A stretch of DNA of 64,000 bases from Candidatus Parcubacteria bacterium (GTDB lineage: Bacteria; Patescibacteriota; Minisyncoccia; Minisyncoccales; JAGLUP01): the NCBI GenBank assembly GCA_023134715.1, contig JAGLUP010000006.1, positions 75,305-139,304 on the forward strand. Reading direction: 5' to 3'. Below are positions 3,856 through 48,608 of this stretch, in pieces; within the stretch, counting starts at the first letter, position 1, and every line of letters begins with the position of its first letter. A program made the position numbers and the translations under genes. The notes below the pieces were generated by a model. That model saw nothing but the letters and a program-made list of their open reading frames with translations, was not told where the DNA came from and searched no databases.

Positions 3856-3871
3856 AAAATTTTATAAATCA

Positions 3872-3887
3872 TCTGCGGCCGCAGATC
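3872..3887. terminator. perfect 16-bp GC-rich palindrome, probable terminator stem
   Basis: ATCTGCGG followed by CCGCAGAT forms a perfect palindrome between the RNase H-like gene stop (3925) and the HEAT-gene promoter. Only a modest T-rich tract follows on the minus strand, so terminator function is likely but not certain. Confidence 0.5.
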
Positions 3888-3924
3888 GTTTATAATAATT
3901 TTGAAAAATGACAACCTGAAAAAT

Positions 3925-8335: not shown

Positions 8336-8371
8336 ATAACACATATAGCACGATCGTTGTATATGTGTTAT
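8336..8371. repeat. CGATCG-centred dispersed palindrome, copy 1
   Basis: ATAACACATATAGC, ACGATCGT, TGTATATGTGTTAT in order form a 36-bp near-perfect palindrome centred at 8353.5, with two mismatched pairs. It lies between the zinc-ribbon gene terminator and the GT2 leader. Other copies: 21634, 41445, 42120. Confidence 0.85.
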
Positions 8372-21633: not shown

Positions 21634-21669
21634 ATAACACATATACCACGATCGTTGTATATGTGTTAT
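21634..21669. repeat. CGATCG-centred dispersed palindrome, copy 2
   Basis: 36-bp near-perfect palindrome centred at 21651.5 with a single mismatched pair; the inner half reads TACCACGATCGTTGTA. It lies between the cassette 3 terminator and the rplC terminator. Confidence 0.85.
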
Positions 21670-21717: not shown

Positions 21718-21755
21718 AAATAACAAATCAGGCCGATCGGCCTGATTTGTTATTT
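21718..21755. terminator. 38-bp perfect palindrome, bidirectional terminator past rplC
   Basis: AAATAACAAATCAGGCCGA is followed by its exact complement. It is 62 bp past the rplC stop and would end the tuf-rpsJ-rplC transcript. A and T tracts on both sides allow it to work in both directions. Confidence 0.8.
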
Positions 21756-41294: not shown

Positions 41295-41340
41295 ATAAAT
41301 AAAAGCAAAATCAAACTATACCTCTATTCGCTTATAAATC

Positions 41341-41372
41341 GCAATATAACTTTCCCGCAATATAACTTTTCC
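41341..41372. repeat. 16-bp tandem repeat (GCAATATAACTTTCCC), two units
   Basis: GCAATATAACTTTCCC followed directly by GCAATATAACTTTTCC. Same period as the array at 41381. Confidence 0.6.
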
Positions 41373-41380
41373 AAACTTCT

Positions 41381-41444
41381 CCCATCAAAATCCTTTCCCA
41401 TTGAAATCCTTTCCCATTGAAATCCTTTCCCATTGAAATCCTTT
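41381..41444. repeat. 16-bp tandem repeat (CCCATTGAAATCCTTT), four units
   Basis: Four head-to-tail 16-bp units, the first with one variant site (CCCATCAAAATCCTTT). The array ends exactly where the palindrome at 41445 begins. Confidence 0.85.
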
Positions 41445-41484
41445 GTATAACGCATATAGCACGATCGTTGTATATGTGTTATAC
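41445..41484. repeat. CGATCG-centred dispersed palindrome, copy 3
   Basis: 40-bp near-perfect palindrome centred at 41464.5, starting GTATAACGCATATAGC. It is 69 bp past the stop of the PaaX/Cas2-like gene and abuts the 16-bp tandem array. Confidence 0.85.
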
Positions 41485-41553
41485 TCTGTAGCCCGCAATA
41501 AAAAGCAAAAAATAAAAAATAAGATAAAAAATCAAATTTTTATTTATTTAAAA

Positions 41554-42108
41554 TTAAATTTCTATCTCTTTAATCAGGAAAATTTTTACAAATTTATCCA
41601 ATAAAAAAGCTCTTATTATTTTTTCTAAATCTTTACTTACCTCATAAGGCGAAATCCAAATGCTTCGTTGAAGTTTCTGAAACCCTAAATTATATAAAAA
41701 TTTTCTGAAGTTATCTCTATATTTTCTTTTCTTTTCTGGAATATCAAAAATTACCATAATCCATTTTTTATCTTTTCGCTTTTTTAATTTTGATTTAAAT
41801 TTTGGATTTAATTTATATTCTACTGTAAGCGCTTTTTGTTTTCCTTTTACGGTCAATAAAATTCCCCTCCCCTCTTCTAAATTCTTGATTTTAATATATC
41901 CTTTCTTTTTTAAATAATTAATAAATTGCCCGAACTGCCTCTTGCTTCTTTTCCGTTCATACTCCCGCCAAAATTTAAAACTATCTGGATTGCAAACATC
42001 TCTCCAGCTTCTTACTGTGAATATCTCGTGTGGTTCGGCAATTTTCCCTAATTCTTCAAAAACAGAATATAAATCCCATAAAAATTTGTCTGTTAAGGGA
42101 ATTTTCAT
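41554..42108 (-). CDS. PaaX-like regulator with Cas2-like domain
   Basis: A 184-residue protein. The N-terminal 100 residues are a winged-helix type region (RKRSKRQFGQFINYLKKKGY, then EGRGILLTVKGKQ). The C-terminal 70 residues match a Cas2-like ferredoxin fold: KWIMVIFDIPEKKRKYRDNF, FRKFLYNLGFQKLQRSIWIS. This is the layout of PaaX-type repressors; in CPR genomes such proteins are often named Cas2. No cas1 or CRISPR array is visible. The start MKIPLTDKF at 42108 is chosen since the longer start lies inside the palindrome. A -10 TATAAT at 42118-42123 gives a nearly leaderless mRNA, and the palindrome overlaps it, suggesting autoregulation. Confidence 0.75.
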   Translation of the reverse strand: MKIPLTDKFLWDLYSVFEELGKIAEPHEIFTVRSWRDVCNPDSFKFWREYERKRSKRQFGQFINYLKKKGYIKIKNLEEGRGILLTVKGKQKALTVEYKLNPKFKSKLKKRKDKKWIMVIFDIPEKKRKYRDNFRKFLYNLGFQKLQRSIWISPYEVSKDLEKIIRAFLLDKFVKIFLIKEIEI

Positions 42109-42117
42109 CTTAAAATT

Positions 42118-42123
42118 ATTATA
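42118..42123 (-). promoter_or_regulatory. -10 element of the PaaX/Cas2-like gene, overlapped by palindrome copy 4
   Basis: Minus-strand TATAAT 10 nt before the ATG. A -35 resembling TACAAC lies 17 bp upstream within the palindrome. A bound repressor on the palindrome would block polymerase. Confidence 0.5.
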
Positions 42124-42157
42124 ACACATATACCACGATCGTTGTATATGTGTTATA
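42120..42157. repeat. CGATCG-centred dispersed palindrome, copy 4 (probable operator)
   Basis: 38-bp near-perfect palindrome centred at 42138.5, one mismatched pair, same sequence as copy 2. It sits between the PaaX/Cas2-like gene start and the SdpI stop. Confidence 0.85.
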
Positions 42158-45592: not shown

Positions 45593-46977
45593 TTTTCTTC
45601 TAATTCTTGTTTTTCTTTTTTAAATTCCTGCTTTAATTGTTCGGATTGCATTTCTCTCTGTTCAATTTTTTTAATCTCATCTAACGCTTCCCTTATTTCT
45701 TTTATTCCTTTCTTAAATCCAAACCTGCCTCTGGTTGAAAAATAAAAAATCAAAGACCCTGTTCCTAAAATTAAAACGGTTATGATAAAATAAATTATCC
45801 ACCATGGGAAAAGAACGCCTTTTACCTGAATTCCTCTTCCCTCTATATAAGAAACAAAAGGAGCAATCAGCTGAAATCGAACTTCTCCTTCCTGCCAGTT
45901 CCCTGCTCTGTCATAAGCTCTAATAATAACACTGTATTTCCCTTGTTTTTTATCCGACATTCTAAGAGGAGAAACAGCTTCTGTAAAAAAGGGCTGCTGA
46001 ATCGGTATTTGATTAAGGTCTCTTACGCTTACCTCATAATAATCTATCCCTGAATGCGAATCTTGGGTCTCAAAATAAATAAAACGAGAATAAGTTTCTG
46101 CTTGTGGAACAAATTTTTGAGGAGGAGTTTTATCAATTTTTACTGAAAAATGACTGGTCTTTCCCCAAATTCCCTGCTTTTTAGCTCTCAGATGAAAATA
46201 CCAAATTCCATCAGCAACATCGGTATAAGATTTAAAACTAATTTCTCCTTCGGAAACAGTATCTGGAACTTCTTTTGGATTTTGAGAAAAACTAAAACTA
46301 AAATTAGAAAGCCACTCGGCTTTTTCCCAAAAAAAACTGGGATTAGAATCACTATACCAAAGGTCAGAGTCAGGATGAGTTAACGACATTATTTTTGGTC
46401 CCTCGGGATGAGGAATTAAAATTTCGTAAACACCGTTGATATTTGTGGTAAAAATCGGCGTGCCTTTTCCGTCAGACAAAAGCAACTTTGAAGAATCTAA
46501 AATTTCAATCTTAGCTTTTCCAGACGACTTTGCCCTAAAAGTAATCGTAGAGACCAAACCTGAAGAAGTCATAATTCCTTCAGGCATTCCCCCTTTAAAA
46601 GAAATAGTTCCTCCGCTATTGGAATAACTCGGAGGAACTATCCACTCTGAAATAAAAGATTTTGTTGCTGTGGGAGATGTTACCTGTAAAATCTCCGGAG
46701 GAAATTTTAAATCAAGCTCTACTGCGTTGATTTTCTGATTCTTGGTATCAACATAAACAGAAACAGAAAACGTGCTCCCTACAAAAAAAGTTCCCTGCGA
46801 TGGAGCGAGATAAAGCGAAGCCCCTGCCGCCTTTACGGACTGCGCTAAACCGACGCTAAACAAAAACACTAAACCGACACTAAACCAAAAGTTTCGCGTC
46901 TGTTTCGTGTATAAGTTTTGTGTCTGTTTCGTGTCCATAGGTTTCGTGTATAAGTTTCGTGTCTGTTTCGTGTTCAT
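45553..46977 (-). CDS. cohesin-domain surface protein 3
   Basis: A 474-residue protein (456-461 if a later Met is used; two of the N-terminal repeats each begin MDTKQTQNLYTK or MNTKQTRNLYTK). Signal region VGLVFLFSVGLAQSVKAAGA, cohesin-like domain (SLYLAPSQGTFFVGSTFSVS, AVELDLKFPPEILQV, GGMPEGIMTSSGLVSTITFR), the LTHPDSDLWYSDSNPSFFW module, and an Ig-like module (IIRAYDRAGNWQEGEVRFQL). A transmembrane helix and a charged coiled coil (EALDEIKKIEQREMQSEQLK) follow, ending in HETEHETYGH. Tandem duplication has extended the N-terminus. Confidence 0.85.
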   Translation of the reverse strand: MNTKQTRNLYTKPMDTKQTQNLYTKQTRNFWFSVGLVFLFSVGLAQSVKAAGASLYLAPSQGTFFVGSTFSVSVYVDTKNQKINAVELDLKFPPEILQVTSPTATKSFISEWIVPPSYSNSGGTISFKGGMPEGIMTSSGLVSTITFRAKSSGKAKIEILDSSKLLLSDGKGTPIFTTNINGVYEILIPHPEGPKIMSLTHPDSDLWYSDSNPSFFWEKAEWLSNFSFSFSQNPKEVPDTVSEGEISFKSYTDVADGIWYFHLRAKKQGIWGKTSHFSVKIDKTPPQKFVPQAETYSRFIYFETQDSHSGIDYYEVSVRDLNQIPIQQPFFTEAVSPLRMSDKKQGKYSVIIRAYDRAGNWQEGEVRFQLIAPFVSYIEGRGIQVKGVLFPWWIIYFIITVLILGTGSLIFYFSTRGRFGFKKGIKEIREALDEIKKIEQREMQSEQLKQEFKKEKQELEEKLKHETEHETYGH

Positions 46978-48572: not shown

Positions 48573-48608
48573 CAGGATAATTTTTAACTTATGTTAAAAA
48601 TTATCCTG
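48573..48608. terminator. perfect 16-bp stem hairpin overlapping the dockerin stop
   Basis: CAGGATAATTTTTAAC pairs with GTTAAAAATTATCCTG around a TTAT loop. The stem contains the TAA stop of the dockerin gene. There is no long T-run beyond it, but the stem itself is A/T-rich. Confidence 0.6.

Follow-up and report, generated by a model that had tools for sequence, protein, structure and literature searches.

A gene for a short winged-helix/Cas2-like protein and the palindromes around it probably form one two-part system, comparable to a REPtron but built on this protein and not on an HUH transposase. REP/RAYT is the standard example of a short palindromic repeat that has a gene of its own. We describe the system from the window, by which we mean the whole stretch of 64,000 nucleotides that was analyzed, part of a 762-kb patescibacterial draft genome (G000).

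The window gene, its palindromes and its protein

The gene (wHTH + Cas2-like, PaaX_M) occupies 41554..42129 on the minus strand as an open reading frame of 191 aa, and alignment with relatives points to the ATG at 42108 as the likely start, giving 184 aa. Its cognate palindrome, which we call family A, was found four times in the window, with no strand assigned. One copy (42120..42157) lies 12 bp upstream of the likely start codon, and another (41445..41484), which carries the substitution ATAACG in one arm, lies about 70 bp past the stop codon. The two dispersed copies are between co-directional genes (8336..8371) and 3' of the ribosomal operon containing rplC (21634..21669). An earlier sequence-only reading of this DNA had located all four correctly, including the pair that brackets the gene, and chance would not give them, 100 shuffles having produced 0. 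Its count of four holds for the window but not for the genome, in which a whole-genome search returned 11 copies of family A. The same reading had placed a palindrome over the -10 box of the gene, which was not established, the promoter scan giving no more promoter-like sites than shuffles. It had also put the non-bracketing copies near terminators, which is not true of all: the gene pairs on either side of dispersed family-A copies may be convergent, divergent or co-directional, and promoters are not preferred.

The window protein matched Pfam PaaX_M (3e-21) and Pfam Cas2 (4e-6; 27.3 bits, cut-off 23.8), and scored 32.6 bits against the cas2 model TIGR01573, above the cut-off of 24.5; the Cas2 family cut-offs were passed only by this protein and some of its relatives. 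On these scores, it would belong to the Cas2 family by its domain only. Against the PaaX equivalog TIGR02277 it reached 25.1 bits, below the cut-off of 264.55, and by score it does not appear to be PaaX, the repressor of phenylacetate genes. Pfam gave no match to a Y1 transposase, and an HUH-type motif was present in 1 of 131 proteins, the window protein not among them. An AlphaFold2 model built from 75 sequences (pLDDT 84, mostly >93 in the Cas2-like part) predicted a winged helix at the N-terminus and a ferredoxin-like domain at the C-terminus. Among known folds, E. coli PaaX (8a39) matched best, with Z 10.1 and an alignment spanning residues 1-184, the entire chain, and the C-terminal half of the model matched Cas2 structures with Z ~9. 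Across 131 relatives, Asp129 (191-aa ORF numbering), Arg138 and Ser156 were 100% conserved and Gln154 was 99% conserved, and this combination of invariant Asp, Arg and Ser with Gln is the Cas2 pattern.

Like the PaaX repressor (PDB 8a39; TIGR02277), the protein has a winged helix followed by a Cas2-like domain, and the structural match runs the whole chain. Unlike PaaX, it is ~184 rather than 305 aa long and is without PaaX's C-terminal part, and its gene is unlinked to phenylacetate genes and has many dispersed sites. With CRISPR Cas2 it shares the ferredoxin-like domain, the conserved Asp, Arg and Q.S motif, and a score that passes the TIGR01573 cut-off. Here, however, the domain is fused to a winged helix and associated with dispersed palindromes, and neither cas1 nor a CRISPR array was noticed in an unsystematic look at the neighbors of the loci read. 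A phage-borne origin was considered and rejected, viral contigs having given one gene match and zero palindromes.

Bracketing, architecture and palindrome families

We sampled gene surroundings from the same order together with 80 loci of named genomes, nearly all Patescibacteria. A palindrome lay at most 130 bp from 65 of 131 distinct genes, and on both sides of 32, while half of the relatives had no palindrome detectable nearby. At the 80 named loci, a palindrome was near 33 genes, compared with 41 of 718 control ORFs (Fisher p=8e-17), and both-sided bracketing occurred at 19, compared with 3 of the 718 controls; Markov-simulated sequence matching the first 858 kb contained 0 palindromes. 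The bracketing palindromes are ~36 bp long and vary in sequence between loci. Bracketing of genes for the Cas2-like domain by perfect palindromes of 36 bases, which form a family of their own, is often seen in Patescibacteria.

One explanation is that the protein is a PaaX-type repressor, for which the upstream palindrome would be the operator of its own gene and the other copies would be operators of the genes beside them. Its fold is like that of E. coli PaaX, with a MarR-like winged helix, a median of 20 bp separates the upstream palindromes from the start codon, and conservation at the central and A/T positions described below resembles that of a dimer site. Yet flanking palindromes were about equally frequent on the two sides (50 upstream and 47 downstream among the 131 genes), and dispersed copies occur between convergent genes, in operons and inside rsmH. 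Copies are not kept between species of one genus, and the genes neighboring them are functionally unrelated. A purely regulatory operator does not account for the whole pattern, and we consider a regulon of this kind unlikely.

We computed the architecture of the palindromes over 65 independent sites. The common plan is a self-complementary 4-mer inside R-C....G-Y, with an A/T block ~10 bp out; C stands at position -3 in 94% of the sites, and positions -9 to -11 are nearly always A/T. The central 4-mer is mostly self-complementary (GATC, CATG, GGCC, TATA, TCGA, AATT, ATAT or ACGT), which leaves the palindrome without a loop. Symmetry falls at positions -5 to -8, and these are also the variable positions of family A in the window genome. 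Between pairs of copies around one gene, 37 half-positions change symmetrically and make up 74 of 127 differences. Such symmetric differences would be expected whether a dimer site is under selection or the arms are copied from a template. They may favor a hairpin-only, single-strand mechanism of the REP type, and the self-complementary centre together with the asymmetry tolerated at -5 to -8 would favor a double-stranded dimer site. A GTAG/CTAC tag as in RAYT stood beside only 2 of 97 palindromes.

Long perfect inverted repeats with symmetric substitutions between copies could also be RNA hairpins, acting as terminators or 3'-end stabilizers, and a downstream copy often sits at the stop codon, touching it in 17 of 47 cases. 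The palindromes are loopless, however, with a self-complementary central tetranucleotide; the copies read showed no T-tract, and Rfam gave no match in the window. Copies also lie within co-directional operons and in frame in rsmH, and a role as hairpins would leave the link with one protein family unexplained. We attach almost no weight to this explanation.

Three PaaX_M/Cas2-like paralogues are present in the window genome, each with its own palindrome family. In a census for which about half the genome was read and pattern searches were added (pattern search alone covering most of C6, C9:1-75304, C10 and part of C7), ~20 copies of family B and at least 2 of family C were counted beside the 11 of family A. 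Family B brackets its paralogue outside the window on contig C11 (G000:C11:1865-2476) and has one copy (AAATAACAAATCAGGCCGATCGGCCTGATTTGTTATTT) in the window at 21718..21755; family C adjoins a paralogue on C7. The single-contig genome G071 has two paralogues and a separate palindrome pair for each. Palindromes and proteins have diversified together, since palindrome distance tracks protein distance (Mantel r 0.29, 0 of 5000 permutations as high), with a correlation that is modest. In family B, the arms that meet at CGATCG are in some copies alike (same-arm pairs) and in others different (mixed-arm pairs), and this re-assortment suggests exchange at the palindrome centre. Family B had 0 copies in 29 relatives.

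We also observed other repeats in these genomes. Short tandem repeats (ccattgaaatcctttcc) at 41340-41446 of the window abut the downstream palindrome. At 3862-3895, the window contains TTATAAATCATCTGCGGCCGCAGATCGTTTATAA, whose core CTGCGGCCGCAG is in common with family C of the same genome and which may be a diverged copy, and at 48573-48608 there is another palindrome (CAGGATAATTTTTAACTTATGTTAAAAATTATCCTG) with no assigned gene. Family-B palindromes are clustered ~480-650 bp apart at G000:C9:43603-45463 and C9:16572-17079. Genome G071 (L251-L309) has a looped palindromic repeat, GGGGTCTATCCCTTGCG-TAATC-GCAAGGGTTAGACCCC, in ~15 copies (for example at 46862, 205625 and 255661), which differs from the loopless PaaX_M palindromes.

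Distribution and movement of the palindromes

Family A was found in 4 of 247 genomes of the order, with 11, 2, 1 and 1 copies. The sequence-only reading had asked whether the gene accompanies the palindrome in every genome. G049 (2 copies) and G021 (1 copy) carry family A with no gene match, so that relic palindromes may outlive the gene. Gene-less genomes showed only these one or two copies, and never the large numbers that would have spoken against a link. Genome G099 has the gene and 8 palindrome copies, and its relatives G009, G055 and G079 gave no gene match and 0 copies.

Another enzyme might instead move the palindromes as selfish elements, the PaaX_M gene having captured a palindrome as its operator or riding as cargo. 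The gene-less palindromes of G049 and G021 are in keeping with this, the protein family has no recorded catalytic activity, and the coding insertions described below resemble those of Rickettsia palindromic elements (RPEs; PMC2229807). Such an enzyme would not explain why each paralogue has its own palindrome family, why palindrome similarity tracks protein similarity, or why the gene-less close relatives of G099 are without copies, and no other gene was noticed to recur with the palindromes in a non-exhaustive look. We judge this explanation very unlikely.

At two loci, a copy is missing from the matching site in genomes of the same genus. One copy in G049 lies between rnpA and yidD and is missing at the same junction in G004 and G076, which belong to the same genus; the difference amounts to 63 bp, palindrome included, and so exceeds the palindrome in length. 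A second G049 copy is missing at the matching place in G004 and G076, where other sequence differs too. In G025, a palindrome makes up codons 134-146 of rsmH, in frame; it falls in a loop that most relatives have in a short form and with no palindrome. Decayed palindromes are present at the same insertion point in G017 and G029, and the in-frame coding insertion thus comprises one clear case and two decayed ones.

The unlinked loci L161 and L168 share 80% DNA similarity over 698 bp, ending near the outer palindrome edges, and the similarity between L168 and L176 likewise ends near these edges, stopping at them or at most ~25 bp off; most other pairs of unlinked loci are too diverged for an edge comparison. 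Some copies moved within larger duplications, as C5:206533/207336 and C5:17807/19016 share flanks. We found no target-site duplication in the flanks examined, and likewise no excision product or exact junction. The flanks of G099 are too diverged from those of G009 and G055 for a base-exact empty site, and the chorismate mutase/prephenate dehydrogenase site has a single useful relative. Locus L215 was rejected as a clean empty site for the L227 palindrome; another PaaX_M gene is there.

A dispersed repeat of ~72 bp (AACATTTTAACATTT-type) was observed at L015:1752-1830 and in ~30 other places in G049, G004 and G076. In G049, one copy separates yidD from yidC, a place at which the other two genomes lack it.

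The sequence-only reading had left two possibilities, an operator or a REP-like element spread by the Cas2-fold protein. The REP-like reading has the stronger support: dozens of loci show bracketing on both sides, every paralogue comes with a family of its own, copies are scattered without regard to promoters, some are missing at matching sites, and one lies in frame inside rsmH; spreading by the protein is the part of it that we infer. The palindrome may act as an operator in addition, given the resemblance of the protein to PaaX and the nearness of the upstream copy to the start codon, but this leaves the downstream copies and the scatter unexplained.

Proposed mechanism and known systems

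In the REPtron-like system that we favor, the short protein (~180-200 aa) would recognize its cognate ~36 bp palindrome, probably as a dimer. The winged helix would bind the palindrome and the Cas2-like domain, with its invariant Asp, would help to cut or join at the central self-complementary tetranucleotide, so that new copies would arise by cutting and joining at the palindrome centre. The palindrome borders the gene on both sides, and the scattered palindromes would be short non-autonomous copies. We infer binding, dimerization, cutting and copying from the fold of the protein and the anatomy of the palindromes, and the protein would then be what moves the palindrome. Autoregulation through the upstream copy is a likely accompaniment, perhaps as autorepression that arises as a side effect, and it may even be the protein's only activity. 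Since the fold that it resembles most is that of the transcriptional repressor PaaX, the protein may do no more than bind. More specifically, we tentatively raise the possibility of a site-specific recombinase or nuclease that binds the 36-bp palindrome, cuts the central tetranucleotide, joins or copies the halves, and spreads both solo palindromes and the palindrome-gene-palindrome unit.

REPtrons consist of a TnpA-REP/RAYT gene with its cognate REP/REPIN repeats (PMC3116915, PMC8266576). As in REPtrons, palindromes border the gene, usually with one gene per family, short copies are scattered, several flavors occur per genome, each tied to its own gene, and protein and repeat co-evolve. Unlike REPtrons, the system has a winged-helix plus Cas2-like protein without the Y1/HUH domain of a RAYT, its palindromes are ~36 bp long with a self-complementary centre and without loop, bulge or adjacent GTAG tag, and there are ~10-20 copies rather than hundreds. 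It thus shares the bordering and scattered palindromes with RAYTs, but not the domain or the tag, loop and bulge. RPEs, which measure 105-146 bp and have no known cognate gene or mobilizer (PMC2229807), are likewise mobile palindromes that occur in intergenic DNA and also, in frame, within conserved proteins, whereas the palindromes described here are ~36 bp and have a cognate gene.

In the open-access literature (subscription journals and preprints lying outside the search), we found no paper joining PaaX, Cas2 and palindromes, and none joining PaaX with Parcubacteria or REP with Patescibacteria. The sole match for Cas2-like, palindrome and transposase concerns mycobacterial CRISPR. A repeat with a dedicated gene is a known arrangement, and the protein fold looks new to such repeats; should the Cas2-like domain turn out to be the recombinase, the system would form a category of its own.

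The finding would place a REP/RAYT-type arrangement on an unrelated fold in the Patescibacteria, a group with tiny genomes about whose mobile elements little is known. It supplies a candidate mobilizer for loopless palindromes and for insertions into essential genes, and it suggests that many 'PaaX' or 'Cas2' annotations in Patescibacteria may belong to repeat systems. If the recombinase proposal is true, a Cas2-fold protein would have a Cas1-independent role in mobilizing DNA, and the palindrome and its gene would amount to a minimal mobile element of a new class. The system points to a possible, testable connection of Cas2-fold proteins with DNA mobility beyond CRISPR.
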